64,000 nucleotides of DNA. Source: Catellatospora bangladeshensis (GTDB lineage Bacteria > Actinomycetota > Actinomycetes > Mycobacteriales > Micromonosporaceae). The position numbers were made by a program, and so were the translations under genes. This document shows positions 3,221 to 56,946 of the stretch, piece after piece (position 1 is the stretch's first letter; every line of letters begins with the position of its first letter). The stretch spans positions 1 to 64,000 of the forward strand of contig NZ_BONF01000027.1 in NCBI RefSeq assembly GCF_016862575.1, read 5' to 3'. Under the pieces are notes generated by a model. It was not told the DNA's origin. It made no database searches and worked only from the letters and a program-made list of their open reading frames with translations.

Positions 3221-3221
3221 C
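3175..3221 (+). repeat. attL: 3' part of tRNA-Lys (first of three att copies)
   Basis: A 47-bp direct repeat matched exactly at 56900-56946; its last 44 bp (3178-3221) are also matched exactly at 39056-39099. It begins in the anticodon stem (CGGACTC) and runs to the tRNA end plus one base. Only this copy has the 5' half of a tRNA upstream, so it is the functional gene and left end of the first element. Confidence 0.93.
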
Positions 3222-14906: not shown

Positions 14907-16724
14907 TTACACGGCGAAGTAACCGAGATCGCCAATGAGAAGCGTTCGGTCGAGGAAGCAGTTGTTGGACTCGCAACTTGTTTCAGGTAGCAGCACGCAG
15001 GCGTGGCAGGCGGCGAGATTGAGGTTGTCAGTCCCGCTCGCCTGGGACTCCATGCAGAGAGGGTCGTTGGAACACCAGGAGGCTCGCTCCAAGGAGGACC
15101 GCAGCGAGCGTCGAAGGCGCTCCAGCTCACCCTGGGCGACGACGCCGCCGAGGCTGCCAGCGGAGTCACTGGTGGCCGTATAGATGAGCAGACCCGCCAT
15201 ACCGTCACCAGCGTAGAGCCGCTCGCGCAGCGCGGAGGCCGGATATCCCGCGTCAAGGCTCCACTCGTTGATCAGGACATGAGCAAGCGTGTGGACAAGC
15301 AGGAACCGAGGCGTCACCGGAGATCGAACCGGCTGTCCGTCAGGGCGCGGCTGGGCGGCGGCACGTTCGTTCAAGAGGCGTAGATGGTTGTCGCGGATCT
15401 GGTCACTGCGGCGTCGTACGTCCGTGTTCGATTCCCATGAACGAAGGCGATTCTGGTCAAGTCGCAGGAACACTCCCTCGCCGCTGACCTCGACCGCCGG
15501 CAACCAGTCGGAATCGGCGGCGGCGAGCCGCGCGTGCCGTTGGTCGGAGTCCGCGTCCATCGGAGTGGCGCCACGTACGAAGGCGGCCAGTGCTCGCACC
15601 TCACGCAGCCGCTTGACCTGCATGACGTCGTCGACGCCGACGGCCTTCAGCGGCGTGAGATCACCTGAAGCTCTCTCGCAGACGAAAGTTTGCAGCTCTG
15701 AGCTGCTGTGCTCGCGGTTCTCCCGCCTCAGGCTCTCATACTCGTCGTGACGAAGCTTCGCATACGCGCTGATTCCCGTGCTGTCGCTTTCGTCGAGCGT
15801 CGGATCGGCCAGGTGCCGAACCAGATCGATCACGTCTTCGACACTCGCGTCGATCGCCTGCAACTTGCGCTGACGGCTGGAGAAGTACCAGCGGATGGTC
15901 TCCTCCGAGGCGTTGAGCAGGTCGTGCTCGTCCACAAGTCGGTGGAGGCCCTCGCTCCATGGCGGAATCGTCAAAGCGCTGTAGACGATCGGATGCCATA
16001 TTGACGATGAGCCTCGTTGCATGACTCGCGTCTTCAGCGTGCACGTCTGCGGACCGGCCGATCTGAGCCACGGACTTCTGCCCTCGCATCGGATCCGGAG
16101 GTCTCGCAGTGCCTGCCTCCGGAACGCCCCGTCCATCGAAACTTCTGGGACGCCGCAGGTGCAGCTCACCACGACCGACCGTAGCGACGCCGCGCTGCCG
16201 TCCGACGTGAGTGCAAGGGTACCGCCGCAGTAACCGCCCGAATGTTCGCTACCGCGGTGAATCCACTTCCAGTAGGGGAAGTCGTCGAGGTGGCCATGGT
16301 CGCATGCGAGCACGAAGCGTGACGGCACGAGTCCGGTGCCGCAGTCGCGGCACGTCGCTTCCCCGACGGGAGAATTGAACTTCCGGAAGGGGAGCAGTGC
16401 CTTGCATTGCGGGCACGAGTAGTAGTCGGGAAACCGCCGGACGCGTACGCCGTCGGTGCCGCGATCGGGGTCGGGTGCGGGCGGTAGGCGGAAGTGGTCG
16501 ACGCCGAGGACTCCGGCGAGGCGACGCTCGCGGATCTCGACGGCCTCGCTGACATCCCACGAGTCGAGGCCGGCTATCACGAAGGACTCGTTGTCGACGG
16601 CGATCAGCGCTCCGACGCCGTACGTGGTGATCAGCTGTGAGCGGCGGATTGCGCCCAGCCTGCGCGGCAAGGCCTGTGGGGGAGATCCGACGACACGTCG
16701 TCGCGAGGGTGGGGGTGGCGTCAT
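14907..16724 (-). CDS. drmB: DrmB-like DUF1998 protein
   Basis: A 605-residue protein of the DUF1998/DrmB type. It starts with a Pro-rich tail and a conserved block (RRLGAIRRSQLITTYGVGALI). Zinc-type clusters CPQC...CRDC and CDHGHLDDFPYWKWIHRG follow. The C-terminus has the signature ACHACVLLPETSCESNN and LDR, with SLGGVVAQGELERL before it. The ATG lies one base after the stop of the DrmA-like gene, and it is last in a four-gene coupled operon. In DISARM, DrmA and DrmB form a complex that binds unmethylated or ssDNA-containing phage DNA and has helicase/ATPase activity. Assignment to the family is strong; membership of canonical DISARM is not, since no DrmC is present. Confidence 0.9.
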   Translation of the reverse strand: MTPPPPSRRRVVGSPPQALPRRLGAIRRSQLITTYGVGALIAVDNESFVIAGLDSWDVSEAVEIRERRLAGVLGVDHFRLPPAPDPDRGTDGVRVRRFPDYYSCPQCKALLPFRKFNSPVGEATCRDCGTGLVPSRFVLACDHGHLDDFPYWKWIHRGSEHSGGYCGGTLALTSDGSAASLRSVVVSCTCGVPEVSMDGAFRRQALRDLRIRCEGRSPWLRSAGPQTCTLKTRVMQRGSSSIWHPIVYSALTIPPWSEGLHRLVDEHDLLNASEETIRWYFSSRQRKLQAIDASVEDVIDLVRHLADPTLDESDSTGISAYAKLRHDEYESLRRENREHSSSELQTFVCERASGDLTPLKAVGVDDVMQVKRLREVRALAAFVRGATPMDADSDQRHARLAAADSDWLPAVEVSGEGVFLRLDQNRLRSWESNTDVRRRSDQIRDNHLRLLNERAAAQPRPDGQPVRSPVTPRFLLVHTLAHVLINEWSLDAGYPASALRERLYAGDGMAGLLIYTATSDSAGSLGGVVAQGELERLRRSLRSSLERASWCSNDPLCMESQASGTDNLNLAACHACVLLPETSCESNNCFLDRTLLIGDLGYFAV

Positions 16725-16725
16725 T

Positions 16726-19700
16726 TCATCGCTCCTGGCGCGTGTTATCGAGGAAGAGGGAGGATTCGACGTCCACGTCTCGAAGGCTCCAGAGTGTCGG
16801 CCACCCCGTGTCGTCGTCGAGATCGTCGAATCCGCTCAACAGCGACCGCCTCCTGTTTCCTCGGCCCGCCTCGTAGACGAGGTTAGGATGGGCCTCGGCT
16901 TCCGCGCGCCACCATTCGACGAATTCGTCGAAGTTGGTCGCAGTGGAGTCGTACTCGTCGCGGTCGACGGCTTCGACGCGCTCGAGTACCAGTGGTCGCA
17001 CGATCGAGTTGATCTCGTCGACGAACTTCTCGACGTCGGCTGCGGCGGCATTGTCCCTCGCACCGGATACCATCAATCGGGTCAGAGCCACGATCACGGC
17101 ATGCAGCCCGCGGTCGCGGGCACGCGATGAGAACGGTGTCACGCTCGTGGACTCGACCGTGCGATAGAGCGCCGAGTGAAAACCCTGGAACTGCTCATAG
17201 TGCGAGCGGTCTCGCGATCGCGCGGAGTTGAGCATGACGGCGATGAGGCCCGGGTGGCGCCGGCCGATGCGGCTCGTCGCCTGAATGTATTCGGCCGTGG
17301 TCTGCGGCTGCCCCATTACGGCCATCAGCCCCAGCCGGTCGATGTCCACACCGACCGAGATCATGTTGGTGGCCAGCAGCACATCACAGGCATCCCGGTC
17401 GGGATACCGCCGTTCGAGCTGCTTGAGATGGCGCGGGATTGCAGTGGACTCGGCACGGCTGCTGAGTTCGATCAACGTGGTGGCATGACGCATGGTCGTC
17501 CCGTCACGGTTCGCGAGCAGCTCGAGGCGGCCCTGTACGTCGTCGAGGACTTGAAGCTCGGCCGCCGACAGCAGCCGGAGGCTGTTGAAATAGCCGACGA
17601 GCGTCCAGTACGCATCGCGAACCGCAGGATCCGCTTCCGACTGTGCGGCGGCCTGTACCAGCGCAGCGTAGGTTCGCACGAGAAGGGTGGCCTGACTCGT
17701 CGTCGGCGCGAGCAGGCCGATGTAGCGGCGCGACGCCTTGTCGTCTCGGGGTGCTTCCACCGCGAACCAAGAGTCGCGTGCGTCGAGTCCGGCTGGCGGG
17801 AACTGGGCCACTTGCCGAGTGAACAAGGCTTCCACCTGGTCAGAGGCGCGCCGGATCGTCGCGGTCGACGCCACGACCTTCGGCCTGCCCGCCAGTATGT
17901 CCACTGCCGTTTCGTAGAGGCCCGTCAGCGTGCCCAATGGACCGGAGATCAGGTGCAGCTCGTCCTGGACGATGAGCTCCGGTGGCCTGACGGGACCGTC
18001 GACTCCGTCGTTGAAGAGCGCCGTCGTCGCAGGGCGCCAGGGCAGCGAGGCGAACTTGTCGACTGTCGCGACCACGAGGGTCGGTCGCGCGTCGTACACC
18101 GCGGCGTCCACGAGGTGCACCGGCAATCCGCGGTCGTCCGAGAAAGGACAGCTACTCCGGGGGCACCGTACCAGCATCCGCATCCATGCCGGGCGTACTT
18201 CGTAATCGTTGGCGGTGAGCTGCTCGCCGCACCAGGGACAGGCCTCCAGCTGCACCGGGTTCTCCCGCTGCAACGACCTGGTGGGAGCACTTCGAAGGGC
18301 GTCGAGCTGTTGCTGTGCGCGCTCCAGCGAGTTGGGTGTCGCGGACCGGCCGACCCACATGCCGATCGAGATGGGCTCCGTGCCCAGCGTGCCAGGCAGT
18401 TCGGCACGGATACGTTCCATGGCACAGATCAGCGTCGTGGCGCGTTCGAACTGCTGCAACGTGAGCACGCGCAGCGTGTAGCGCATGAGCACGGTGACGC
18501 CGTGGCCTACCGCACCGTCGCGTAGCCGCCGCAAGAACACGGTGAAGGCGATCAGACCGAGGTACGCCTCCGTCTTCCCGCCGCCGGTGGGGAACCACAG
18601 CAGGTCTGCGACATCGTGGTCCCCATGAACAGGATCGACGACGCCTTCAAGACAGAGCAGAAGGAAGCCGATCTGGAACGGCCGCCACCGCACGACTGTC
18701 GGCTCCGGGGACCCCGTACGACCGTCCTTGACCCATCTCGCCTGTGCATGCTGTGCGGCCATGGCTCGGTTCGCCAGGCGGAACGCTTCCAATACCTCGG
18801 GCTTGTCGAGGTCGGCGAGCAGTTCCACCCCGCGACGCATTCGACCCAACGCCGCAGTGCACTGCGACAACTGCTTGGCGGCCACCTTCCTGTGATCGGC
18901 GCCGAGGGTGGTCCTCGCCTCGTCCTGTCGGGCGGCGATCCAACGTTCGTATCCGTCGAGGAGCCGGGTCAGGGCACTTGCGATGTCCTGTCGTGAGCCT
19001 GTCGCCAACGTGTGCATGCTCAACGCCGGTCCTTCGACGGCCGGGTTGGAGTCGGTGAGCAGGACCTCGTGCGTCGGTATGAACTCGGTGCGCACGGACG
19101 ATACGGCGCATACATCCGGAATGGGCTCGTAGACGGCTGGCGGCTGCCAATCCCACGCGACCGAGCAGCCGTGTCCGACGGCGAAGCGAGGAGCGTATCG
19201 GTAGAGAAGGGCACTAAGGGTCTGATCATCATCGAACGAGCCGAGCACCGCGGTGCGCTCGACGAACGGGCAGACTCCCTCCGGTCCGCTGATCTCGATC
19301 TCCGGCTGGAAGAAGCACTGAGCGTCCTGGAGGACGTAGCTCCCCGTGGAGAGCATGTTCACCAACGTCATAGTAATGGTGACCACGCCTGCGGAGTCGG
19401 CCTCGCGTACCAGAGCCCGAAGTTCCAGCCCAGGGTGAAGAGAAACCCGTCGGACGCCCGGACTGCTGATGTCGAGCGAGACCGGTTCACAGATCACTGG
19501 CACGCGACGCCAGCGCTCCCGCTGTTGGCCGGTGCTGCGTGCCTCTGCTCGCTGAGGTTCGACGGGTAGACCGTGCTCGTCCTCCGGCACGTAGACGGCG
19601 GCGCGTACGGTCGCGTACACGACCTCGGCGGCGGACATGTCGACGCTGAAAGAAAGTCCCATCGAGGATGGTTTGCGTCGATTCGCCAGCACGACACCTG

Positions 19701-19947
19701 TGTCGCCGGTCCGGCTGTCGAGATCGTCGCCCCGGACGACGTCCGGCGGTGCGTCGAAGATCTCCTCCTCCCCCGTGGTCGTCTGGTCGAGCTGCGGGAA
19801 CAGGACCCCGATCGGGTAAGCGGTGACCGGTGTATCGGTCGTCAAGATCTCTTCGGGACCCGCCTGAGGCCCGAGAAGGTCGGCGCGCAGGGCATGGCGC
19901 AGCTTCGCACGAAGGTCGTAGTGCGCGGTGTGGTCGATGGCTGTCAC
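16726..19947 (-). CDS. drmA: DrmA-like SF2 helicase
   Basis: A 1073-residue helicase. GTG 19947 overlaps the stop of the upstream UvrD-like gene as GTGA; the in-frame upstream extension is unlikely. Walker A is FPTGGGKTEAYLGL, Walker B is VQDELHLISGPLGTL (a DEAH-like DELH, characteristic of DrmA), a CPWCGEQL zinc-like pair lies between them, and motif VI is QATSRIGR after GVDIDRLGLM. Length and motif set match the DISARM helicase DrmA. It precedes the DrmB-like gene with one base between. A role as the DNA-engaging motor of the defence complex is inferred from that family. Confidence 0.9.
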   Translation of the reverse strand: MTAIDHTAHYDLRAKLRHALRADLLGPQAGPEEILTTDTPVTAYPIGVLFPQLDQTTTGEEEIFDAPPDVVRGDDLDSRTGDTGVVLANRRKPSSMGLSFSVDMSAAEVVYATVRAAVYVPEDEHGLPVEPQRAEARSTGQQRERWRRVPVICEPVSLDISSPGVRRVSLHPGLELRALVREADSAGVVTITMTLVNMLSTGSYVLQDAQCFFQPEIEISGPEGVCPFVERTAVLGSFDDDQTLSALLYRYAPRFAVGHGCSVAWDWQPPAVYEPIPDVCAVSSVRTEFIPTHEVLLTDSNPAVEGPALSMHTLATGSRQDIASALTRLLDGYERWIAARQDEARTTLGADHRKVAAKQLSQCTAALGRMRRGVELLADLDKPEVLEAFRLANRAMAAQHAQARWVKDGRTGSPEPTVVRWRPFQIGFLLLCLEGVVDPVHGDHDVADLLWFPTGGGKTEAYLGLIAFTVFLRRLRDGAVGHGVTVLMRYTLRVLTLQQFERATTLICAMERIRAELPGTLGTEPISIGMWVGRSATPNSLERAQQQLDALRSAPTRSLQRENPVQLEACPWCGEQLTANDYEVRPAWMRMLVRCPRSSCPFSDDRGLPVHLVDAAVYDARPTLVVATVDKFASLPWRPATTALFNDGVDGPVRPPELIVQDELHLISGPLGTLTGLYETAVDILAGRPKVVASTATIRRASDQVEALFTRQVAQFPPAGLDARDSWFAVEAPRDDKASRRYIGLLAPTTSQATLLVRTYAALVQAAAQSEADPAVRDAYWTLVGYFNSLRLLSAAELQVLDDVQGRLELLANRDGTTMRHATTLIELSSRAESTAIPRHLKQLERRYPDRDACDVLLATNMISVGVDIDRLGLMAVMGQPQTTAEYIQATSRIGRRHPGLIAVMLNSARSRDRSHYEQFQGFHSALYRTVESTSVTPFSSRARDRGLHAVIVALTRLMVSGARDNAAAADVEKFVDEINSIVRPLVLERVEAVDRDEYDSTATNFDEFVEWWRAEAEAHPNLVYEAGRGNRRRSLLSGFDDLDDDTGWPTLWSLRDVDVESSLFLDNTRQER

Positions 19948-21863
19948 GGATGGTGATGTCCTTCCGGGAGCTGGTCGGCATGGGTCCAGTCGAAGCGGCC
20001 GAGACCGCATAGCCGTGGCGCGAGCCAGGCGCCGCGACCACCCAGGCCGAGACGTTCGGTGAGGGCGGCGAAGCCTGCGGCCGTCTCGACGGTGTCGATG
20101 CGCAGGCCGGTGACCCGACACGGCCATCGACGGACCTCGTACGTCCGCCTACCTCCGAGAATCCGCCATAGGTCACTGCGGAACCGTCGCGAGGTTTCGC
20201 CTATCAGCCGGTCTTGATGAAAGATCCCGTAAGGCGGTGTCTCGGCGGTGGACTCGGGAAGGTCATGGAGCCTGCGCAGTTCGATCCCGTCACCCTCATG
20301 GACCGACGTGGCTAGGTATTGCTGAATCTCGGCTGAGTCTTCACCCGGCAGCCCAACACCCATGGCAGGCGCCTCATGACACACATCGAACTCGGTGCAT
20401 TCCATACCGCTGCGTGCCGAGGGGTTGTGCCTGCCGCCAGACACGTACCAGCGATCGACTTCTGCATCCTTGCGCATCATCCAGGTCGCGGGACGCGTCA
20501 GGCGGAAGAGGTCGTCGCGCGGGCGTGTCATCGCGACGAACAGCGCTCGTACCTCAGCGCTCGGGTCGACCCGGTCCGCGTCGAGTTCGGTCAGAGCCCG
20601 CGGCTTCACGACCAGCACCCGGTCGAACTCCAGGCCTTTGGCGCGATGAACCGTCGACAAGACAAGCCGGGTTTCGGCAGAGGCCGACAGTTCCTCGGGG
20701 AGCCGCCGCTCAGCGACGGCTCTGACCAGAGCGTCGAGGTTCAGCCGACCGTTTCGAGTGCCGGCGACTCCGCGTAGCGTCCTCCACGCGCGCCGCGGAT
20801 CGAGTCCGGCCGGCAATGGCAGGTTCGGGGATAGTTCGAGAAAGCGGTCCTCGGCGATCTCGACCATTTCGGTCGCCTGCGTCAGCGCCGCCACCCATGC
20901 GGGTGCCGGACGTGCCCGAGCCGATCGCTGGAGGCGGTGTGGGACGCCGGACCGGTTGAGGCTTTCAGACAACAGCAGCACCTCTGCGTTAGTCCTGCCC
21001 AGGATGGCACTGCTGCCCTCGAACTCTCGCAGCGAGGCCTGGACGAACGGGTCGTCCAGGTCACCGAAGTCGGGAACGGTTTCGAGGGCTCGGCGCAGGC
21101 TGTCGTGAACGGCGTTCGCTGCATATTCGGCACGCGCGCGGTCGGTCGGCAGCTGCCGGATGCTGTCGCCGTACGACAGGGCGATGGCAGCGTCAGCGGT
21201 ACGTGCGCGGAAGTTGTCGCCCAGATGAATCTCGACGAGATCGTCGGTGAACCAGTTGCGTACCCACGTCAGAAACCACCCGGTCTCCTGGTTGCGTTCC
21301 TCGAGGTCTGCAACCTGGAACCCGTAGACCGCCTGCGCGATGTCACCGACGACGGTCAGACCGCAGGCAGGAGTGAACCGCTCGAGCAGAGCCTCCACCA
21401 TCAACCGCCGGACGCCCATGAGGTCCTGAACTTCGTCGATCACGACGTGAGCCGGGAAGCCCTGCTCGGTCTTCTCCACGACGCCGGCCGCGATGGCATC
21501 GGTCGCGAGTTCGATCCGACTGTCGTGGTCCAGGCCTGACAGGGACTCCACGGTGTGCTCGGTCTGCAGGAGCAAGGCGGTCGCCCATGCATCAAAGGTC
21601 TGCACCCGGACCCGCGACGTCGGTCCGGATAAACGATCCGCGCGTCCGCTGAGCGCTTGAACTGCCGCCTGGGAGAAGGTGAGCACCAGGATGTCGGCCG
21701 GATCGAGCTCCTCGACTTCAATCAGATGCTCGAGCCGGAGACTCAGCGTCGTGGTCTTGCCGGCGCCTGGGCCCGCCGTCGCCAGGGTCCGCGCGTCGTA
21801 CGGCTGTGTGATCACAGCCTGCTGCGCGGGAGTCGGCTCGAACAGCGCGTCGAAGCCGGTCAT
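19944..21863 (-). CDS. UvrD-like SF1 helicase
   Basis: A 639-residue superfamily 1 helicase. Walker A is TAGPGAGKTTTL at about residue 27, then TFSQAAVQAL, Walker B HVVIDEVQDLMG, GDIAQAVYGFQ, NFRA, and late motif TVHRAKGLEFDRVLVV. A divergent C-terminal region (residues 490-639) has no nuclease motif that I recognise. ATG 21863 overlaps the stop of the upstream giant gene (ATGA), and its own stop overlaps the DrmA start. Strict coupling implies stoichiometric production with the other three proteins. UvrD-like proteins are not part of described DISARM classes as I know them. Confidence 0.88.
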   Translation of the reverse strand: MTGFDALFEPTPAQQAVITQPYDARTLATAGPGAGKTTTLSLRLEHLIEVEELDPADILVLTFSQAAVQALSGRADRLSGPTSRVRVQTFDAWATALLLQTEHTVESLSGLDHDSRIELATDAIAAGVVEKTEQGFPAHVVIDEVQDLMGVRRLMVEALLERFTPACGLTVVGDIAQAVYGFQVADLEERNQETGWFLTWVRNWFTDDLVEIHLGDNFRARTADAAIALSYGDSIRQLPTDRARAEYAANAVHDSLRRALETVPDFGDLDDPFVQASLREFEGSSAILGRTNAEVLLLSESLNRSGVPHRLQRSARARPAPAWVAALTQATEMVEIAEDRFLELSPNLPLPAGLDPRRAWRTLRGVAGTRNGRLNLDALVRAVAERRLPEELSASAETRLVLSTVHRAKGLEFDRVLVVKPRALTELDADRVDPSAEVRALFVAMTRPRDDLFRLTRPATWMMRKDAEVDRWYVSGGRHNPSARSGMECTEFDVCHEAPAMGVGLPGEDSAEIQQYLATSVHEGDGIELRRLHDLPESTAETPPYGIFHQDRLIGETSRRFRSDLWRILGGRRTYEVRRWPCRVTGLRIDTVETAAGFAALTERLGLGGRGAWLAPRLCGLGRFDWTHADQLPEGHHHP

Positions 21864-24800
21864 CGCCTGTTCCCCTCGGTCCACAGTTTCTCCAGGTCTT
21901 TGAAAGCGAGTCCGTCGCGGTAGTTGGTGATGTTGTCTCGTACGTCGAGGATCAGGCATTCCGCCTTACCGCCGTTGCGTGGTCCGCGAAGCCCTCGCCC
22001 GATCATCTGCTGGTAGCTGACGGCGCTGTAGACCGGGCGGGCGATCACGACCGCACGTGTGGCGGGCGCGTCGAATCCTTGTGACAGCACGCCGTAGTTC
22101 GTGATGACACGGAGCCTTCCGTTGCGGAAGGCGGCGACCTTCTGACGTCGCTCCGAGGGGGCCGTGGCCGAATCGATCGCTGCGGCCTGAACGCCGCGAT
22201 CGCTGAGTTTGGCCGCCAGGAACTTCGCGTGCTGTACCGACGTGGCGAAGACGAGCACCGGCCAGTCGGTTGGCAGCGCCGTTATCTCGTCGATGAGAAT
22301 CTTGTTGCGGGTCTCGTCCTCGCCCAGGCGCTGTTCGGCGCCTTTGGGAAGGAAACCACTGAACTGCTCGACGGTCTCCAGCTCGTGTTGGCTCAGGATC
22401 AGGCTCGTGCCAGCCAGTTCGCGGTGCTGAACCCGCGCCAGGACGCCTAGGCTCTGCAGGTGTTTGACCGGCTCATCGGGGAAGACGCCTTCGTCCAGGC
22501 GTCGATCGCCGAACCGCTGGACGAGCAGGCGTGTCTCCTCCTTGTTGCTGCGATACGGGGTAGCGGTCAGCCCCACCAGATGCCGCGGTGTCGCGCGGTG
22601 GGTGAGTCCGAGGTGTTCGAGGATGCGGGTGTACTCCGTGTTGTAGGCCGTGTGGGCCTCGTCGACGAGCACGAGGGACGCGTTGCGCAGCCATGCGTAC
22701 TCCGGTGTTCCCAGGCATTTGTCGAGCTTGGCGTCGGTGGCCACGACCAGGTGGGGACGGCCCGTCACCGGCGTGGCAGAGTTGGTGTGCCACAGCCGGT
22801 CGATGACCAGCGGCCGGTCGAGTCCGACCTTCCCCCACACGAACTTCCAGGATTGCACCGCCTGTTCGCACAGTTCGCCGGTCTGAGCGATCCACAGGAT
22901 CGGGCCGTCGGGCGTGCCCGACTCTCGTACCCATCGGATTACCCCCTCGGCAGCGACTCGCGTCTTGCCAGCGGCCGTCGGAAGGCTGAGCATCGCCCGG
23001 CACGGAGTCTCGGCACCGAGGAGACCCGTGAGCCGCGACGCGATCATCTCCTGGTACTCGTGCAACGCCGGGAAAGCAGTCGGACCTTCCACTTCCTCGC
23101 GCATCGGTGGCGAAGGGATTCGGACACCGGCGAACTCTTCGGGGAACCCCAGGTCCGCCACGAACCTCAGAGCCGTGTGGCCGCCGTCGAACTGAGACGG
23201 GGCGTCGGGAAACCGCTTCTTCTCGATGTCTTTGGCGTGTGCGCGAAGCACACCGTCGCCGTGCGCCCCGTATGCGAGCTGCGCGAGCCTCAGATGATCG
23301 GGCTCACCTCCCGTCTCGGCGATCTCGCTGGCGACCAGTCCGTTGGGAAGGCCCATCCGCAGGTCGTCCTCGTCGACCAGCAGAGCGATCTTTTCGGCGA
23401 TGCCGACGGCCTGCCGAACTGCCTCCTTGCGCTGTCGAGTGGCGAGTTCGTCCTTCTGACGTCGGTCCGCGTCGAGCACTGCGCGACATCCTGCCGGTCC
23501 GAGCCCCCAGGAGAACAGTTGATCTGCCTGCATCAGTACCTGTTCCGGCGACGCGCTGTCGACGACCAATGCCGTGTTGACCTGACGTGCGCTGGTCTGG
23601 GGCGCCGAGCGGGTTCCGCTCGGTGTACGGATGATCTCCTCGAGCTCGATGCAGCGCTGCAGAAGAAGACCGCCGACTCGTGTGCCGCCCAGACGCTGAC
23701 GCAGGGCGGGGAACTCGTCGGCCAGCGCCGTGGCCGGCCCACTCGGCACGAAACGGATCTTCTTCTCGATGACGTCCGCGACGCGGCGCATACCCCATTC
23801 ACGGATCATGAAATCCGCCTGCTCGGCGTCGTCGGCCGCGTCGACGAGGATCACCGGGTGTTTCTCGCGAACGAGTTCGTCGTACTCGTCCCGAGTGAAG
23901 GCGACCGCGATATCGCCGTCGGGCCGAAGATCCCACTGTGCGCCGACACGACAACGCACCGTCGACTCCTCGTTGAGCAGGTCGAGGGCGACTCTGGCTA
24001 GGAGAGCGTAGGTTCGACCGACGAAGGCGTCGTCGGTGCTCTCCTTCGCCATGGTCAACAGGTCGGACCAGCGTTCAGATTCCACGTCTTCGACTTTGGC
24101 CGGCAGTCCCAGCTTCACCGCGAGACCCGTCCTGATGTCCGCAACGGGCAGGACCTTGGCGTAGGAATGCAGCTGAGGACCTACCGCGGCACTCACCGGC
24201 ACCAGACCCAGTGAGGTGTTCACCGTTCCCTCGCCGGAGATGAGCCACCGAATCGGTGAGGGGACTGCTACCCTCGTGCTCGCCTGGCCGCCGACCTGGC
24301 GCGTCCAGTAGGTCACCAGACCGTCGTCCGGGACGGCGGCCAGAAACGCGGCCTTACCTTCGTCGGACAGTCTGCCGAACAGGTGAAGCGGACCGGCCAT
24401 GGGGGAGCCTTCGAACCTCAGAGTGTGCGGTTGAACGCGTCTGGCGGTCGGATCGAGCTCCTCGCAGTACGCCTCGTACATGGCAGTTCGATAGCGTTCA
24501 AACCACTGCTCCTCGCTCGGCTGGTACCCGCGACGCGGCGCGTCGACGGCCCCGAGCTCCCGAAGAACGGGCAGGTCGTCGGCGTGGAACATCGTATCGA
24601 TCGTGAGATCCGCGTCGCGTGATCCGTCCGGCGGTACGACGGGACCGGGCAACAAGCCGTCGCGGATAGGCAGGAAGTCGCCGGTCATCGTTCTGACTCG
24701 CAGCGTCACGGAGGTCTCGGACATTCGATCACGGATCGCGGTGACCTGACTCGTGCCGCCTGCGACGCGCAACAGCTCCCAGAAGCGAGTCCACGACCGC

Positions 24801-26686: not shown

Positions 26687-27014
26687 GCTGACATCGCTCC
26701 TTGGCTGAGGTCTGCGGGCGTCGCGGGGAACGGACGCATGGTCGATGAAGCAGGCGGCGCGGAGGAACACATGCGACGTCGGGTCGACCGACGTGAGGAG
26801 CTGTGCGAGGAGCGTCTTGTCGAGCTTGTACGTCCGGGTGCGTACGGCGGTCGACAGTAGTCGTCATTGGACGACCACCGACAGTCACGCAACGGAGTAT
26901 GTTGGCGGTCCGATCGGCGATGAGTCCCACCAAGACGGCGGTCTCGTCAGCGACACGTCCCGTTTTCGGGTTCGACCGTCTTGCGATGGCCGACAGGCGC
27001 GATGACAACTGTAA

Positions 27015-27038
27015 TTTGACGAGTGGTGCGCTGTCAAA
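27015..27038. promoter_or_regulatory. inverted repeat in the divergent spacer (candidate operator)
   Basis: The 410-bp spacer 26687-27096 contains no gene. TTTGAC (27015-27020) is inverted as GTCAAA (27033-27038) with a 12-bp spacer, 58 bp before the HTH-ATPase gene. It is a plausible operator for that protein's own XRE-type HTH, controlling both operons. A TAGAGT at 27049-27054 could serve as a -10 element. Confidence 0.45.
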
Positions 27039-27096
27039 CATCGTTTGCTAGAGTCGTCGCCGTAGGTGTCGAGCCAGGCGGAAGGCGGCGTAGTAG

Positions 27097-29190
27097 ATGA
27101 CAGAACAGCAGGAGGAGTTCGGGCCCTGGCTCAGCCGCCAGCTGCGGCGCGCCGGGATCACCCAGACGGAGCTCGCGGCTCAGCTGAATCTGACACGCGC
27201 AGCGGTCTCTGCATGGATCACCGGAAGGGCCGAGCCACGCGAAGAGGTCAAGAGGTCGATCGCCGAAGCCCTCGGCATCGACGCGGCCTCGATCTACAAC
27301 CGGACGGACGTCGTGGCCGAGCTGCCGCGCCGGTGGCACCACCGGCCGGCGCATTCCGACGGTGGCCGCGAGTACGGCAACGCGGCGGCCTTCGCGTTCG
27401 ACGCCGATCTCGCCGTCCTGGCCCGCGAAGCCACCCAGAACTCCCTGGACGAACGCAAGGATCCCTCCCAGCCCGTGCGGGTGCGCTACACACTGCACGA
27501 GATCAGTGGCGAATACCTGGATTCGTTTCAGCAAGCCGTTCGTTGGCACGAGCTGGCCGATCATTATGAGAAGGCCGCTTCCGCCAGACAGAAGGTCTCC
27601 CGCAGCCTGCGTGCGGCGCTGGACGACCTCGGCCGAGACCGCACCCTGTTACTGCTGCGCATCGACGACTACAACGCATACGGCCTCACGGGTCCCGAGT
27701 ATGACGACGGCCGCTACGCGGCCGTCGTCAGGCGTCAGCTGGACAGCCACAAGAACGATTCACGCCGTGCAGGGGGCTCCTATGGCCTTGGCAAGGCGAC
27801 CTTGTGGGCGTCGAGCCGCTTCGGCCTTGTGTTGATCAATTCGACTCTGGCCGTTCCTCATGAGGGCCGCACGCAACGGCGCGTGATCGGTCGGCTCGAC
27901 TTGCCCTGGCGCGACGTCGGCGGCCAGGCTTACGCCGGCCCGGCGTGGTTCGGCGAACCGGACACCGAGCCCGCCCACAAGGATGTGTCGCGCTCATGGT
28001 GGGCCGACGAACAGACCGTCCGCAACCTTCATCTCGACCGGTCGACGGACGAGCCAGGTACCTCGTTCCTCATCGTGGGTGCCCACGACGCCTCCGGTGA
28101 TGCCGACGACCTGCCCGAGATGCACGAGAAGCTGGTCAAGTCGTTGGCCGACGGCTTCTGGGCGGCCATGGTCGGAGGGAACGCCGCTCATCCGCTACTA
28201 GAGGCAGGAGTCACCACGTTGCGTAACGGCCATGTCCTCATACCTGAGCAGCGTGTCGATCCCCACGCCCATCATCCCGCGTTGAGCAGGGCGCTGCAGG
28301 CATACCTCGACGGCGACGTCGTCGAGGAGCTCACCTCCGGCGAGCAGGTCGCCCGCGTGGATGTGCCGCTGACGGTGCCGCCGCTGCGTGGCATGGGACG
28401 TGGTCGAGAGCGAGGCAGTGAGCACCACGCCGTCCTCCTCCTGACGCCGGCGGCGGACAGCGACGAGCGCGTCAACCGTGTCGTGTGCATGCGCGGCAAC
28501 CGTATGACGGTGACCGAACAACGTCCCCGTGATCTTCCGCTGGGCACCGCACCATTCCAGGCCGTGCTGCTGGCAGGTCACGCCACAGCCCGCGACGGTG
28601 ACGACGTCAGCCTCGCCGAACAGTTCCTTCGCGCGTCCGAACCTCCCGAGCACGATCGCTGGGATCGGACCGAAGAGCTTACGTCCTCGTACGAGCGGGG
28701 CGCGCTCAGCCGGCTGAGAGAGTTCCGCGCCGAGATCGACAAGGCGGTCAGAGGGCTCGTCGGGCGGCGCGAGATCAAACGCAGCGGAGGCCCGTCGGTG
28801 CTGCGCGAACTACTGAAGCTCGACACCACGGGTCCGGGTGGTCCCCGTCCCCCGCAGGGGGTTCCGACGGTGCGCAACGTCAACGCGCACGTGCAGGCGG
28901 ATGGAGCATGGCAGGTCAGAGTAGATCTCAAGCTGCCAGACACGGCCGATCCGTGGCTGTTGACGCCCGTGGCCAAATTCGACGTCCGCTCGGGCGGCCG
29001 ACCCGTCGTCAGCTGGAAGCTGCTTACTGCATCGGACAACTGCCGGGTCGAGGAAGGCAACCTCCACATCGAGGCCAGCGTGCGCTCGGCCGCGTTCACC
29101 GGCGTCACCGATCCATCAAGTCATCCCGTGAAAGGCGACCTGGCCCGCCTCGTGATCGACATTCAGCGAGCCCGTGGAGCAGTGGCATGA
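27097..29190 (+). CDS. XRE HTH fused to GHKL-type ATPase domain
   Basis: 697 residues. Residues 8-64 form an XRE HTH (LSRQLRRAGITQTELAAQLNLTRAAVSAWITGRAEP). From about 110 on a GHKL-like ATP-binding domain is visible: VLAREATQNSLDERKD (N box with the Asn), LLLRIDDYNAYGL, and GGSYGLGKATLWASS (G box). The C-terminal 350 residues are unassigned. It starts the plus-strand operon divergent from the GHKL-helicase operon and overlaps the next gene by ATGA. This is the second GHKL ATPase of the island. DNA-binding regulator whose repression responds to ATP or partner binding is one reading; an effector with built-in autoregulation is another. Confidence 0.8.
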   Translation: MTEQQEEFGPWLSRQLRRAGITQTELAAQLNLTRAAVSAWITGRAEPREEVKRSIAEALGIDAASIYNRTDVVAELPRRWHHRPAHSDGGREYGNAAAFAFDADLAVLAREATQNSLDERKDPSQPVRVRYTLHEISGEYLDSFQQAVRWHELADHYEKAASARQKVSRSLRAALDDLGRDRTLLLLRIDDYNAYGLTGPEYDDGRYAAVVRRQLDSHKNDSRRAGGSYGLGKATLWASSRFGLVLINSTLAVPHEGRTQRRVIGRLDLPWRDVGGQAYAGPAWFGEPDTEPAHKDVSRSWWADEQTVRNLHLDRSTDEPGTSFLIVGAHDASGDADDLPEMHEKLVKSLADGFWAAMVGGNAAHPLLEAGVTTLRNGHVLIPEQRVDPHAHHPALSRALQAYLDGDVVEELTSGEQVARVDVPLTVPPLRGMGRGRERGSEHHAVLLLTPAADSDERVNRVVCMRGNRMTVTEQRPRDLPLGTAPFQAVLLAGHATARDGDDVSLAEQFLRASEPPEHDRWDRTEELTSSYERGALSRLREFRAEIDKAVRGLVGRREIKRSGGPSVLRELLKLDTTGPGGPRPPQGVPTVRNVNAHVQADGAWQVRVDLKLPDTADPWLLTPVAKFDVRSGGRPVVSWKLLTASDNCRVEEGNLHIEASVRSAAFTGVTDPSSHPVKGDLARLVIDIQRARGAVA

Positions 29191-30164
29191 GAGCAGCCAT
29201 CGCCTATCCGACCCTCTTCGGAGACGTCGATCTCGAAGTCGTGTCCGTATCAGTCGACGGTGTCGACCTCCCCTACGCACAGATCTCCAGGCTCGAACGA
29301 ACCGTCGCCCTGCACCGCGGCGGCCGGGAGAAATGGGAGTCCGCACACCTCCGACTGAAGGCCACGCTGCCCGAAAAGGAGATTGCCGACGGTCCGTGGT
29401 CGGATCTGGCCGTCGTCGCGGTGGTGTCCGAGAAGGTTACGAACTCACGCAGCACCGCGCAGCTCAACCGAGGCCACGACGGCTTCTGGCACGGAGGCAT
29501 CGAAGTCTCACGGCTTCGCCATTTGAACCGTGTGGTGTTGTCCCTCGCCGTGGTCGCCACGGTCGACAGCATGTCAGGGCGAATGGTGGGCGCCACAGAG
29601 CGCGACTGGTTCGTCGACTTGACCGCCACGACACCAACACGTCAGCGGGAGTTGGAGATCGTCGAAGCGGACTTCCGCGAAGGTCCTGACGAGTGGCTAC
29701 GTCCTTATCAAGACTCCCCGTGGATCGTGGAGACGTCGGGCGACATCCCGACGGTCTACTTGAACACCGCCGCAGTGGAGGGCCTGATCGATCTACTCCA
29801 CGCTCCGGGAGGTTCGGCGGCGGAGAAGATGCTGCGCGACATGACCGCCAGCCAGATCGCACAGGACGCCTGGACCGCGATGTTCCACACCGCCGTCGGC
29901 GACCTGGAACTTGACGACGACGGTACGCCGCTCATGCCCTCAGGCTGGCGCGAGTCCGTGCTGCGATCGATGCTGCCGGACGTCCTGCCCGGCCGGCAGC
30001 TCACGGACGCGCTCTACGACATCAACGAACGCCGCATCAAGGGCTTCGGCTGGTCTGAGCTGCAAACGAGCATTCAGCATGCCGCCGGTAAGCGCAGCCA
30101 GACGACTAAGAAGCTCACCAACGCCGTGCGATCCATCTCGGTCGAAAAGGACTCGAGCCGATGA
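29187..30164 (+). CDS. unknown protein of the HTH-ATPase operon
   Basis: 325 residues from ATG 29187, overlapping the preceding stop (ATGA). There is no signal peptide or membrane helix. The N-terminal half is beta-rich (AAIAYPTLFGDVDLEVVSVSVDGVDLPYAQ). The C-terminal half is helical, with LINDLL-like and GFGWSELQTSIQHAAGKRSQTTKKLTNA segments. I do not recognise the family. Tight coupling on both sides to 27097-29190 and 30161-31045 argues that the three products work together. Confidence 0.75.
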   Translation: MRAAIAYPTLFGDVDLEVVSVSVDGVDLPYAQISRLERTVALHRGGREKWESAHLRLKATLPEKEIADGPWSDLAVVAVVSEKVTNSRSTAQLNRGHDGFWHGGIEVSRLRHLNRVVLSLAVVATVDSMSGRMVGATERDWFVDLTATTPTRQRELEIVEADFREGPDEWLRPYQDSPWIVETSGDIPTVYLNTAAVEGLIDLLHAPGGSAAEKMLRDMTASQIAQDAWTAMFHTAVGDLELDDDGTPLMPSGWRESVLRSMLPDVLPGRQLTDALYDINERRIKGFGWSELQTSIQHAAGKRSQTTKKLTNAVRSISVEKDSSR

Positions 30165-31045
30165 ACCGTACGGTGATTCCGGATCTACCACACGTTCTCG
30201 GTTCGCTGCCAGGCGCTGCCGTCACCAAGCACATGAGCCGCGGAATACAAGCAGGTCAGGAGCGCCCACCGCAGGTGATCCTGCGAAAGGCTTCGAACCC
30301 GCTACCGGAGCTCGAGGATCGTTGGCGGACCGAGCCGGTGCGTGAACTCCTCGACGAAGCGATGCGGCGGTTCGCCGGAGGCCGGGCGTCGGCCGACGGT
30401 TGGCTCGCTCCACGCCTCCACGCGACGTTGCGCATGACCCGAGCGGAGGCAGCAGACCCAGGACTCTGGAACTTCCTGGCCATGATCGTGGCGCCCGATT
30501 ACGTCGTCTGGCGCCACAAGGGTGCTGAGATCGCCCCGGCGGCCCGCTTCGCCGGCCCGCATTACAAGCAAGCGTTCGCAAGGCTGTGGTGGGCCGCTGA
30601 ACTGTTCCGGAACGGCGCCGACTACAGGCCCGTCGAACTGGCCTGTCGCGTGCAAGACGTGCTGAACACGACCATGCGACTGGACGTCATCGATCACCGT
30701 CCCACTGCATTGGCGATCGTCGGGGTGCTGGAGCGGCTGCTCGCCGACGGCTCCCCCCGGCCGGGAGATCACATCAATGCCCTCTCGTCCGCGGTCAACG
30801 CTGCAGGGAGCACACTCTTCTATGACGTCATGGCGATCGACGACTCCGCTGACGCAGACGCACTCCTGCACTGGATAAGCGAGTCCGCTGGCATGGCGCC
30901 AGTACCGTGGGATCGGCTGCCACTAGGTCCCGACGACGGGGCCGTGCGCCGAGGCTCCGTGGAGTCGCTGATTCCGCTGTTCGAGCAACTGCTGCTCGAC
31001 GCCCCCATCCGCCGGCGCGACGGCGACGTCAACGACGACGAGTGA
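30161..31045 (+). CDS. DUF6339-like protein of the defence operon
   Basis: 294 residues; ATG 30161 overlaps the preceding stop. The helical sequence with WLAPRLHATLRMTRAEAADPGLWNFLAMIVAPDYVVWRH and AFARLWWAAELFRNGADY resembles a family I know as DUF6339, which tends to occur beside HTH-ATPase and methyltransferase genes; that assignment is from memory. No catalytic motif is obvious. It is separated by 37 bp from the methyltransferase homologue downstream. Confidence 0.68.
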   Translation: MNRTVIPDLPHVLGSLPGAAVTKHMSRGIQAGQERPPQVILRKASNPLPELEDRWRTEPVRELLDEAMRRFAGGRASADGWLAPRLHATLRMTRAEAADPGLWNFLAMIVAPDYVVWRHKGAEIAPAARFAGPHYKQAFARLWWAAELFRNGADYRPVELACRVQDVLNTTMRLDVIDHRPTALAIVGVLERLLADGSPRPGDHINALSSAVNAAGSTLFYDVMAIDDSADADALLHWISESAGMAPVPWDRLPLGPDDGAVRRGSVESLIPLFEQLLLDAPIRRRDGDVNDDE

Positions 31046-31082
31046 CGTACGTCCACCGGCCCGCCATACCCGAACGTCCGGA

Positions 31083-32087
31083 ATGAGGAAGACAGTGAAT
31101 CCGCTGACGAGACGTCTGCGCTCGCTCGAGATCTGCGCAGGTGCAGGAGGCCTGGCACTCGGCTTGGAGCAAGCCGGGTTCGATCCGGTTCTACTGATCG
31201 ACAACCTCGGTGTGGCGTGTGAGACGCTGCGTCTCAACCGTCCGCAATGGGATGTAAGAGAGATGGACGTCCTCGAGTTCGACCAGGCTGACGAGAAGCA
31301 AGTCTATGACGTGGACCTGCTGTCGGCCGGTCTACCGCGGGTCAAGGCGACCGCGACCGTCAACCGCACACGCGGCAGCGACGTCGAGCTTCGGCTCCTC
31401 GAGGCGACCATCATGCTGATGCACGGCGTGCAGCCGCGAGCCCTGCTGATCGAGAACGTCCCGGACCTCGTGACCAAGGCCGACTACGCCGCCATTCGCG
31501 AGTTCGTGGTCGATGAGCTGCGACACCTGGGATACCGGTGCAGATGGTTCGTGATCAACGCTGCCGACTACGGGGTTCCGCAAGATCGGCGACAGGGCGT
31601 GCTGGTGGCCTTCAAGGGCGACCTCATCGATTCTTTCCAGGAGCCTGAGCGCGTATGGGATCCGCCGGTGACCGTGGGCACCGCCTTGGCAGAGTCCATG
31701 GCGGCCCGGGGGTGGACGCAGGCGGCGCAATGGGCGGCTCAAGCGGACAGGATCGCTCCGACGCTGGTGGGGGGCTCATGGGAACGGGGCGGGGCAGACC
31801 TTGGGCCGACCGGATCGAAAGCCGCATGGGCCAGGATGGGCGTGGACGGCGGTACCGTCGCCGATGACGTTCCCGGGCCGGGATTCATCTGGGACCCGAG
31901 CCTTGGTCGCCGAGGCATGATGGCGCTGACGGTCGAACAGACCGCCCGACTGCAAGGATTCCCGCCCGACTGGCAGATCGCGGGCCGGAAGACGGCCCGG
32001 TACCGCCAGGTCGGCCACGCCTCACCGCCGCCGGTCGGACGTGCCCTCGGCAACGCGATCCGGGCGGTATTGGCTGCCGACAGCTGA
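31083..32087 (+). CDS. C5-methyltransferase homologue lacking the catalytic Cys
   Basis: 334 residues with the fold of DNA cytosine-5 methyltransferases: motif I EICAGAGGLALGLEQAGF, motif VI LLIENVPDL, motif VIII NAADYGVPQDRR and motif X YRQVGHASPPPVGRALGNAI. In motif IV, where active enzymes have Pro-Cys-Gln, this protein reads SAGLPRVKATATVNRTRG, codons CCG CGG at 31335-31340, so the nucleophilic Cys is Arg. The change is not a single-base error and the flanking sequence is also unlike PCQ-FS. It may bind AdoMet and DNA without methylating, for example as a sensor of DNA state, or use other chemistry. Start could be GTG 31095, which has GAGGAAG upstream. Confidence 0.85.
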   Translation: MRKTVNPLTRRLRSLEICAGAGGLALGLEQAGFDPVLLIDNLGVACETLRLNRPQWDVREMDVLEFDQADEKQVYDVDLLSAGLPRVKATATVNRTRGSDVELRLLEATIMLMHGVQPRALLIENVPDLVTKADYAAIREFVVDELRHLGYRCRWFVINAADYGVPQDRRQGVLVAFKGDLIDSFQEPERVWDPPVTVGTALAESMAARGWTQAAQWAAQADRIAPTLVGGSWERGGADLGPTGSKAAWARMGVDGGTVADDVPGPGFIWDPSLGRRGMMALTVEQTARLQGFPPDWQIAGRKTARYRQVGHASPPPVGRALGNAIRAVLAADS

Positions 32088-32177
32088 TCCGATCGATCGG
32101 ACCGGCTCGTCGGATGCGCCCGAGCTGGCGACTTCCGGAGCCGGTCCACCCACCGCCATGCTTTTCGGGGCGGGCGG

Positions 32178-33215
32178 TCAGTCCTCGCGCGGGAGGGTCT
32201 GGCCCTCCTCGATCTTCGGCGCGAGTTCCAGCGAGCTGGCGGCTTCGGGGCCGGCCGCGTGCTCGGCTGGTGTGCTGATCGCCGGCCTACAGGTCGACCG
32301 CCTCAATCGTTGAACCACCGTTCGTATGTCTGTCTCGTCGGGCAGGTGCACTTTGCCGAATTTGCGGGCCCGTTCCAACCGCACGTTCTCGACCAGGAAG
32401 GCCGGATCGGCACCCTGCAAGACACTCTTGGTAGCGACCTTACGTCCGTGTTCATCGTCGCGATAGTGCGCATTCCGGATGTATATGTTCAGGGCGATCC
32501 TGCCGAACCACGCGTCCACCTTGAAGACGGCATCGGCCAACGGGTGAATCTGGAGCGGAATCCCGTGCTCTCGTAGTCGGACGAGCAACCACAGCTCGCG
32601 AAGGAACGAGTAATAGGCGTTGCCGACCCGCCACCGCAATGCGTCGTCGACGATGCTTGCGGGCAGCCCTTGCTCGATCGATCGAGCCTTGGCGTCGTCG
32701 ATCGGTCGACCCAGCATCAGCCTGCCCACGGGGTCGTGTCGGAAGAAGACGCGGAACTCGTCCCACGTCGGCACACTACGGCTGCGTTCCGTCAGATGAT
32801 GAAGAACGAACGTGAACGCGAACGGCGGGTTCCAGTCGGCGATCTGAGGCAGCGCCTCGACCTCCGCGCTCTTCACGTTGCCGAGGGCGTGCCCAGTGCG
32901 GCGACAGACCTCCCCGACCGTGCGCGAGGACATTCGGTACACCGTCGAGACCGTGTGTCTTTCAACCCATGGCACGACGATCTCGTACCGCGGATCAGTG
33001 CGCCACGCCTTATACGCACGATGCGTCCTCGGTGCGGAACCGAAGTGGGCGAGCACGTCGGCTGCGGTCGTCGTCTCCGATCTGGCGGACGGGTCCAAGT
33101 GGCGGCCAACCCCGGCGTCTCGTAGCACGGTCGTCGGCGGAAAGTTATCAGTTTCGCGGTGATGTCGCTGCCCCGTCGATCGATATGGGTCAGGGCTCGT
33201 GTGCGGTGCTGCCAC
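32178..33215 (-). CDS. unknown protein, possible restriction-type partner
   Basis: Up to 345 residues from GTG 33215, convergent with the Cys-less methyltransferase gene and divergent from the Vsr gene. The first 45 residues look poorly conserved, so a start near VLRDAGVGRHL is possible. The body is helical with RWRVGNAYYSFLRELWLLVRLREHGIPLQIHPLADAVFKVDAWFGRIALNIYIRNAHYR and RKVATK. The HPLAD...VDAWF...LNIYI stretch has a nuclease-like look, but a full PD-(D/E)xK set is not visible. A restriction nuclease for the neighbouring methyltransferase is only a guess. Confidence 0.6.
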   Translation of the reverse strand: MAAPHTSPDPYRSTGQRHHRETDNFPPTTVLRDAGVGRHLDPSARSETTTAADVLAHFGSAPRTHRAYKAWRTDPRYEIVVPWVERHTVSTVYRMSSRTVGEVCRRTGHALGNVKSAEVEALPQIADWNPPFAFTFVLHHLTERSRSVPTWDEFRVFFRHDPVGRLMLGRPIDDAKARSIEQGLPASIVDDALRWRVGNAYYSFLRELWLLVRLREHGIPLQIHPLADAVFKVDAWFGRIALNIYIRNAHYRDDEHGRKVATKSVLQGADPAFLVENVRLERARKFGKVHLPDETDIRTVVQRLRRSTCRPAISTPAEHAAGPEAASSLELAPKIEEGQTLPRED

Positions 33216-33372
33216 GTTCGCGAACGACGCCGCAGGTCGGCGCCTGAGCGATGAGGCGGATCGTCGCGTCGCCAGATCACCGTGCGATCATGCAGTTGTG
33301 TCCTCAACCCGCTCCTCGGAGATCGACCCGGCGTCACCACCGTCGGTGCCGCTGGCTCGGCCCTCTCGAACG

Positions 33373-33837
33373 GTGAAGGAGAGCTGGGCCTCCAGCCCGG
33401 GCGTGCGCCGCAGCATGCAGTCGAACAAGGGTCGTGACACCCGCCCGGAACTCGCGCTGCGGTCCGCCGTGCACCGGCTCGGTCTGCGCTACCGAGTTTC
33501 GGTTCGTCCGGTGAAGGCGGTTCGCCGTACAGCTGACCTGTGCTTCACCCGAGCGATGGTCGCCGTGTTCCTCGACGGCTGCTTCTGGCATGGTTGCCCC
33601 GACCATCACACCAAGTCGAAGACCAACGCGCAGTACTGGGCAGACAAGGTCGTGCGCAACCGTGAACGCGATGCCGAGACCGATCGGCTGCTGGCCGAGG
33701 CTGGGTGGACCGTCGTGCGGGTTTGGGAGCACGAAGCTAGCGAAGTCGCCGCTCAGAGGGTCGTCGACACTGTCCGTGCCGTGCTCGGAAGTCGCAAATC
33801 AGGCCACCGACTCACGACACCTTCGCCTGAAGCCTGA
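33373..33837 (+). CDS. vsr: Vsr-type very short patch repair endonuclease
   Basis: About 154 residues from GTG 33373 (the start is chosen to match the usual N-terminus SPGVRRSMQSNKGRDTRPELALRSAVH). The family signature RRTADLCFTRAMVAVFLDGCFWHGCPDHHTKSKTNAQYWADKVVRNRERD contains the catalytic Asp and zinc ligands. VRVWEHE follows. Vsr nicks T:G mismatches that arise by deamination of 5-methylcytosine, and pairs with C5-methyltransferases. The complete methyltransferase begins 114 bp downstream. Confidence 0.9.
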   Translation: MKESWASSPGVRRSMQSNKGRDTRPELALRSAVHRLGLRYRVSVRPVKAVRRTADLCFTRAMVAVFLDGCFWHGCPDHHTKSKTNAQYWADKVVRNRERDAETDRLLAEAGWTVVRVWEHEASEVAAQRVVDTVRAVLGSRKSGHRLTTPSPEA

Positions 33838-33951
33838 TGCGCCACCCGGCCCGCCGGACCGGTTCATGAGATGATTCGCACGGAGGCTGGTCTTCCGAAC
33901 TGACGTTCTATAAGGTCGAGAGGCTGCTGGCGAGCCGAAAGGGGTCGAATA

Positions 33952-35022
33952 GTGACGATCAGAACGATCGACCTCTTCGCTGGAGCCGGCGGCCTCGCGC
34001 TCGGATTCCGTCAGTCAGGCCTCGAGTTCGAGCCGGTCTTCGCTGTGGAGGTCGAGCCGGCCGCTGCGCGTACCTTCAAGCGCAACTTCAACTGCCACGT
34101 TCACGACGGCCCGATCGAGCAAGTCGACCACTTCCCCGAGGCCGACGTCATCATCGGTGGTCCGCCGTGCCAAGGGTTCAGCCCTCTCGGGCGGGATCGT
34201 GACGATGCCAGTCGGGCCCAGCTCAACGAGCTTTGGCAGCACTACCTACGAGCGGTCCGTGCGGTCCAGCCCAAGGCGTTCGTCATCGAGAACGTGCCTG
34301 AGTTCCAGAAGTCGGCTCAGTTTGCCAGGCTGCTGAGCCTGATGGAGACTGACGAGGTCCTCAAGCAGTACGCGTTCAACTTCGGTGTGCTCAACGCCGC
34401 AGACTATGGCGTGGCACAGCGCCGCCGGCGAGGGCTCTTCATCGCGGTTAAGGGCGTGGCAGAGGTTCCGTGGCCGCCTCGACCCACCCACGGCCCAGAA
34501 TCGGACACAAAAGTTGAGCACGTCAGCGTTCGTGCTGTGATCGAGGACCTGGCGCCCTACCCACAGATTACCGAGATCGGCGAGACGCCAGATGGCGGCC
34601 AGGATCTGCACATCGGTCGGAATCCGCGGCCGGAATCGCTGGAGCGCTACAAGGCCATTCCCGAGGGCGGGAATCGTTTCGACCTCGCCCGGGTCAGGCC
34701 GGACCTGCTACCTCGGTGCTGGCGGGAAAAGAAGACTGGAACCGCTGACGTTATGGGCAGGCTGTGGTGGGACCGCCCGAGTCTGACCATTCGTACCGAG
34801 TTCTTCAAGCCGGAAAAGGGTCGGTATCTGCACCCTGTGCACCATCGACCGATCACACACCGCGAGGCGGCGCGTATTCAGAGCTTCCCCGACGATTTCG
34901 TCTTCGAAGGTACGAAGGTCGAAATCGCGCGGCAGATCGGCAACGCCGTACCTCCTCTGTTGGCTCAGGCTCTCGCGCGCCACGTGTATGACTTGGCATT
35001 CGGCGACGTTCGCGACGCATAA
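33952..35022 (+). CDS. DNA cytosine-5 methyltransferase
   Basis: 356 residues from GTG 33952, with AAAGGGG seven bases upstream. All key motifs are present: DLFAGAGGLALGF (I), GGPPCQGFSPLGRDRDD (IV, catalytic Cys), FVIENVPEF (VI), NAADYGVAQRRRRG (VIII) and ARQIGNAVPP (X). The target recognition region lies between about residues 190 and 310. With the Vsr gene it forms a methylation/repair pair, and an unidentified nuclease could make it a restriction system. Its recognition sequence is unknown. Confidence 0.94.
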   Translation: MTIRTIDLFAGAGGLALGFRQSGLEFEPVFAVEVEPAAARTFKRNFNCHVHDGPIEQVDHFPEADVIIGGPPCQGFSPLGRDRDDASRAQLNELWQHYLRAVRAVQPKAFVIENVPEFQKSAQFARLLSLMETDEVLKQYAFNFGVLNAADYGVAQRRRRGLFIAVKGVAEVPWPPRPTHGPESDTKVEHVSVRAVIEDLAPYPQITEIGETPDGGQDLHIGRNPRPESLERYKAIPEGGNRFDLARVRPDLLPRCWREKKTGTADVMGRLWWDRPSLTIRTEFFKPEKGRYLHPVHHRPITHREAARIQSFPDDFVFEGTKVEIARQIGNAVPPLLAQALARHVYDLAFGDVRDA

Positions 35023-36025: not shown

Positions 36026-36041
36026 GGTCGTCTCCGAGTGG

Positions 36042-39055: not shown

Positions 39056-39099
39056 ACTCTTAATCCGCGGGTTCGGGGTTCGAGTCCCTGGCGGCGCAC
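39056..39099 (+). repeat. middle att copy (junction of element 1 and element 2)
   Basis: 44 bp identical to tRNA-Lys positions 3178-3221. The preceding bases do not form a tRNA, so this is a non-functional 3' fragment. It is the right end of element 1 and left end of element 2, whose integrase gene begins about 160 bp away. Confidence 0.92.
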
Positions 39100-56899: not shown

Positions 56900-56946
56900 C
56901 GGACTCTTAATCCGCGGGTTCGGGGTTCGAGTCCCTGGCGGCGCAC
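56900..56946 (+). repeat. attR: right tRNA-Lys 3' copy
   Basis: 47 bp identical to 3175-3221. It is the displaced original 3' end of the chromosomal tRNA-Lys gene and marks the right limit of the accreted elements. Confidence 0.93.

Follow-up and report, generated by a model that had tools for sequence, protein, structure and literature searches.

DISARM occurs as class 1, with DrmD and DrmMI, and class 2, with DrmE and DrmMII; Tiamat, of which TmtA is presumably the protein, is a single-gene system. According to the available parts of published accounts, DISARM DrmAB is switched on by unmethylated DNA with 5′ overhangs (PMC9142583), and the GHKL proteins of restriction–modification (R–M) operons have been proposed to act as ATP-driven engines of rearrangement, in a MORC/paraMORC account whose available part mentions neither DrmA, DrmB, nor DISARM (PMC2292703). 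Here we analyze a locus within a 64-kb window (the entire stretch of DNA analyzed) of the 8.8-Mb Catellatospora bangladeshensis genome. Its module A comprises a GHKL–superfamily 2 helicase fusion (GHKL-SF2), a UvrD-like superfamily 1 (SF1) helicase, DrmA, and DrmB; its module B comprises a helix-turn-helix (HTH)–GHKL protein, u326, and the DUF6339 protein u294—together termed the trio—with a dead and an active C5-methyltransferase (MT1 and MT2) and Vsr. We lean, at slightly better than even confidence, toward a widespread actinomycete restriction-type defense whose two modules are co-inherited. Protein identities are profile matches (Pfam, PADLOC), the PADLOC matches listed being the best 25 of 45 for the UvrD-like protein, 25 of 57 for MT1, and 25 of 62 for MT2.

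Module A occupies the minus strand as four coupled genes divergent from the HTH-GHKL operon, an arrangement given in the initial annotation with which the open reading frames (ORFs) and profile identities agree. GHKL-SF2 (21860..26770) joins a sacsin/Tiamat-type GHKL domain, a large middle region, and a RadD-like helicase (TmtA 3e-43, spanning residues 41–567; Helicase_C 4e-13; ResIII 3e-12), and its profile matches RadD at 1.5e-30 and sacsin at 1e-4 among PDB sequences. It is followed by the UvrD/GajB-like SF1 helicase (19944..21959; Pfam UvrD 1e-22, GajB profile 8e-23), the DrmA homologue, an SF2 helicase of the YprA type (16726..20127; PADLOC DrmA 5.2e-246), and a DrmB homologue of 605 amino acids (aa) with an MZB/DUF1998 zinc domain (14907..16724; PADLOC DrmB 4.2e-77, Pfam MZB 4.2e-09). 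As also described earlier, the junctions overlap or nearly touch: DrmB and DrmA are separated by 1 base, and the other ORFs on this strand overlap one another, their exact starts being uncertain. A GTG near 26686 with GGAG upstream is the probable start of GHKL-SF2 (read by eye), and the true start of DrmA likely lies near 19.94–20.01 kb.

The gene set is not limited to this window and is carried by many Streptomyces and their kin. We retained 80 related loci, each with a GHKL-SF2 gene (439 further matches were left out), and this gene is distributed over 17 genera. The other module A genes accompany it almost invariably (UvrD-like in 79/80, DrmA in 78/80, DrmB in 77/80), and the order GHKL-SF2>UvrD>DrmA>DrmB is kept in 77 of the 80, the exceptions (L092, L094, and L097) being stretches that end 1.8–2.6 kb past GHKL-SF2. 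The divergent trio is found in 72 loci and u326 in 73; in 69, MT1 occurs together with the complete set of seven genes from the core and trio. When the 1159 ORFs of the 80 loci were clustered, the nine largest clusters by locus number all came from this system, spanning 80 down to 34 loci with both methyltransferases in one cluster; the two next-ranked clusters covered 29 loci each. Such co-occurrence in fixed order supports the initial annotation’s proposal of a composite or new system in which an ATP-switch layer is added to a DrmAB core. Genome counts point the same way. Among 200 genomes of one other family, taken as Streptomycetaceae, full HTH-GHKL occurs in 23 and GHKL-SF2 (full-length or split) in 19; both are present in 15, vs. 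~2 expected (Fisher p 1e-13), and are adjacent and divergent in all 15. Within the host genus, 11 genomes were compared, the one with the window among them, and 3 of these carry the GHKL-SF2 gene.

The two methyltransferases differ at the catalytic motif, as had been predicted from the window. MT1 (31083..32087, +; Pfam DNA_methylase 6.6e-41) reads LPRVK at the PCQ position, with Pro-Arg instead of Pro-Cys, whereas MT2 (33952..35022, +; Pfam DNA_methylase 5.2e-60) is complete and reads GGPPCQ. The missing Cys is a conserved trait of the MT1 family: in the MT1 alignment (DEAD METHYLTRANSFERASE), motif IV Cys appears in 0 of 72 rows, one of which lacks the segment, and the position is Pro-Arg in 68, Pro-Ser in two, and Glu-Arg in one. 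The S-adenosylmethionine (SAM), ENV, and QxR motifs are mostly retained, with exact GAGG (the SAM motif) in 63/72 and exact ENV in 57/72. A GxPPCQ ORF of the MT2 type is present in 75/80 loci, and a GPPCQ methyltransferase lies co-directionally within ≤1.5 kb in 66 of 71 MT1 loci.

A shared sequence also marks the divergent promoter region. The 22-bp inverted repeat TTGAC-N12-GTCAA at 27016..27037, a putative operator, is the sole match in the window. Discovered and counted in the same set of loci, it is shared by 44 of the 72 divergent regions compared (61 kb) vs. one match in the remaining 1.69 Mb. Other spacings of the inverted half-sites from 0 to 24 reach no more than five loci each, and GTCAA-N7-TTGAC is also found in 28 loci.

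Distances among the seven proteins in 70 loci correlate at 0.94–0.975 within modules and 0.85–0.93 between them, in favor of co-inheritance. Several observations weigh against a single co-inherited defense. Such correlations, taken here without a control, can also reflect the shared ancestry of entire genomes. HTH-GHKL is not in the available stretch of 7/80 loci, some of which are truncated where a contig stops. GHKL-SF2 is lacking from 8 of the 23 genomes with full HTH-GHKL. In the window, u345 and Vsr lie in the 1.9 kb that separates MT1 from MT2, an arrangement that most relatives do not show. The repeat is missing from 28/72 loci and from 10/10 trio loci of other types, and so seems particular to the GHKL-SF2/UvrD version. 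Module A has no recognizable nuclease, so a killing step is either missing or supplied in trans.

A rival reading, which we regard as rather unlikely, is that a defense island holds a stack of three independent systems: the DrmAB cassette, a trio resembling PDC-M33 together with methyltransferases of its own, and an R–M system of type II (MT2, Vsr, and u345). That arrangement would fit the loci without HTH-GHKL, the occurrence of u345 only beside MT2-like genes, and the presence of the trio and its methyltransferases beside other effectors. It accords poorly with the adjacent divergent pairing in 15/23 genomes with full HTH-GHKL and 72/80 GHKL-SF2 loci, with the correlated distances, and with a promoter repeat confined to loci of the window’s type. 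Because the trio and methyltransferases also occur with other effectors, independent scattering of the genes, which would have counted against the proposed system, is partly borne out even as order is kept in most loci. We read the modules as two separable units rather than one obligate complex.

Features shared with DISARM include separate, adjacent DrmA and DrmB genes and a nearby C5-methyltransferase. The DrmA homologue matches solved Serratia DrmA (7s9v) at 1.2e-170 over Serratia residues 136–1305, aligns with gaps in the trigger-loop region, and places a C-terminal Val (read by eye) opposite V1296, proposed as a methylation sensor in the available part of the Serratia report (PMC9142583). 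By ORF length it is ~100–200 aa shorter than six DISARM-type controls. In a tree of 45 DrmA sequences, loci of the GHKL-SF2/UvrD (25), GHKL-SF2/NERD (6), and sigma-GHKL (5) types each formed a single clade (support 0.99–1.0), and these joined three Mza-associated DrmA in one clade (support 1.0). The six longer DISARM-type DrmA fell apart from it, and neither GHKL-SF2, UvrD, nor any trio gene was matched in their neighborhoods. A search of 150 genomes of a family found DrmA matches in 46 and a colinear high-scoring class in 13, of which 10 carried GHKL-SF2.

An ordinary DISARM variant, in which DrmAB with accessory genes works exactly as DISARM does, would account for the clear DrmA and DrmB homologues and the C5-methyltransferase, yet we consider it improbable. 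No DrmC, DrmD, DrmE, or DrmMI appears among the PADLOC matches listed for the window proteins scanned. The shorter DrmA, without a match to the first 135 Serratia residues, belongs to a separate clade, and the two GHKL proteins, the SF1 helicase, and the dead methyltransferase are near-constant parts here. MT1 and MT2 match DrmMII profiles but score higher with DruM2 or MTase_II among the matches listed. One representative each of three unlabeled families common in the 80 loci gave no phospholipase D nuclease match; the host genome has three PLDc_2 matches, outside the locus.

Module B, as part of the co-inherited defense that we favor, opens with HTH-GHKL (27097..29190, +), a 697-aa putative ATP-switch regulator that pairs an XRE-type HTH (HTH_3 2.9e-09) with a GHKL ATPase. 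GHKL motifs are legible in both GHKL proteins, and the N, G1, and G2 boxes of HTH-GHKL are strongly conserved in 74 sequences. The next two genes, u326 and u294, had been annotated as unknowns. The first (29187..30164, +; 325 aa) is a beta-sandwich plus helical protein by AlphaFold2 (mean predicted local distance difference test, pLDDT, 87.5; predicted template modeling score, pTM, 0.65) that has no match in Pfam or PADLOC and no convincing one in the PDB comparison; a 418-aa ORF from 28908 was rejected as an over-long reading of it. The second (30161..31045, +; 294 aa) is all-helical (pLDDT 92.1, pTM 0.90) and matches Pfam DUF6339 at 4.5e-10. Sister loci L186, L187, and L188 encode fusions of a C5-methyltransferase lacking the Cys with a DUF6339-like stretch, and the fusion genes adjoin GHKL and DUF4420 genes. 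A sigma-70 part is fused to HTH-GHKL in 5/5 sister loci with DrmA (L177 9296–12913, L179, L181, L182, and L183; Pfam n=1, blastp n=4), and NERD-SF1 could be made out at three of these loci; such a fusion is a possible infection-responsive sigma factor.

Vsr (33199..33837, +; Pfam Vsr 3.5e-14; start probably downstream of 33199) was detected in 61/80 loci by tblastn and 34/80 by ORF clustering. The neighboring u345 (32178..33215, −) has no family match among Pfam and PADLOC profiles; homologues in L091 (same record as G039), L163, and G587b each adjoin an MT2-like gene, and u345 is a candidate to partner the type II enzyme. Separately, a NaeI-type restriction enzyme (L020 4381–5463, G148) lies near a C5-methyltransferase and Vsr, beside a GHKL-SF2/DrmAB cassette; its cluster recurs in G026 and G123, and L163 has NaeI-like and u345-like genes together. 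Within module A, the C-terminal domain of the UvrD-like protein has no family assignment, and its conserved residues contain no nuclease motif by eye. The nuclease step might fall to Vsr, to u345, or to a nuclease of the host. A NERD domain is present in sister loci.

Other described systems share further parts. As in paraMORC/Mza restriction systems, a GHKL ATPase, SF2 helicase, C5-methyltransferase, and Vsr are all present; the difference from Mza and the MORC/paraMORC R–M operons is a helicase part made of GHKL-SF2, UvrD, and DrmAB. PDC-M33, a PADLOC candidate, is echoed in partial profile matches of HTH-GHKL to PDC-M33A (1.7e-24) and u294 to PDC-M33C (2.4e-05), with the B subunit unmatched here. 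No paper describing it was found in the open-licence literature searched, and we know of no link between it and DrmAB. Tiamat shares the sacsin-like GHKL N-terminal domain, which here is fused to a RadD-like helicase within an operon. On a Roseobacter litoralis plasmid (NZ_CP143425.1; L193 7629–12053), genes for a helicase like the SF2 part, an ATP-binding protein, and phospholipase D stand in a row, a possible split cousin of GHKL-SF2. ARMADA, in the available part of its description, likewise places a YprA-family and a GajB-like helicase in one operon; its BrxHII-like helicase, its PglX-like methyltransferase, and its YprA protein, typically unsplit and bearing a Vsr-type nuclease domain, are not seen here (PMC12458937). 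Among the PADLOC matches listed, DrmA and GHKL-SF2 have a weak BrxHI/BrxHII row and PglX is absent.

Joining the activation of DISARM DrmAB by unmethylated DNA to the GHKL engine proposal leads to a model of a methyltransferase pair, a GHKL switch, and a helicase effector. Module A would be the effector: the GHKL–RadD-like helicase and DrmAB would load onto invading DNA that is unmethylated and has single strands exposed. Together with the SF1 helicase they would then either unwind and block this DNA or make it accessible to nucleases. Module B would mark self and control the effector. MT2 would write 5-methylcytosine and Vsr repair its deaminated form, while the dead paralogue, which retains the SAM motif and has Arg in place of Cys, may serve with DUF6339 as a reader or partner subunit. 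HTH-GHKL would bind TTGAC-N12-GTCAA as an ATP-driven switch, setting expression of both divergent operons. We infer the DNA target, methylation sensing, HTH binding to the repeat, and defense itself; the gene set and its order, co-inheritance, the conserved Cys loss and repeat, and the two fusions in sister types are direct observations.

The system travels in a mobile context. A tRNA-Lys(CTT) 3′ end at 3178..3221 (+) recurs as a 44-nt identical copy at 39056..39099 (+), and an exact 47-nt copy lies at 56900..56946. Because of these exact copies, we read the region as two tandem integrated elements with the system in the first, at about 3.2–39.1 kb. A maintenance or DNA-repair role for the element (RadD-like helicase, Vsr, UvrD) in place of defense would suit these flanking repeats and the closest solved counterpart of the SF2 part, which is named DNA repair helicase RadD; we hold it to be very unlikely. 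The first element also encodes a tyrosine recombinase (12515–13477) and a Replic_Relax protein (13889–14836), and between the system and its end lie an IrrE-type metallopeptidase (35474–36106, −) and a ThiF/E1-like protein (37884–38720, +). An integrase (39260–40675, −) opens the second element, where a PADLOC RmrA match (5e-147; 54760–55851, −), which we take to be RosmerTA, adjoins two giant plus-strand ORFs without a PADLOC match (43190–46993, 1267 aa; 47123–54148, 2341 aa).

The fixed gene order was not found as a named system in the open-licence literature searched, in keeping with the initial annotation’s view of its novelty. The component parts are of known kinds. As a set they are widespread in actinomycetes and undescribed in that literature, and the surprising points are a conserved dead methyltransferase and an exchangeable control module.
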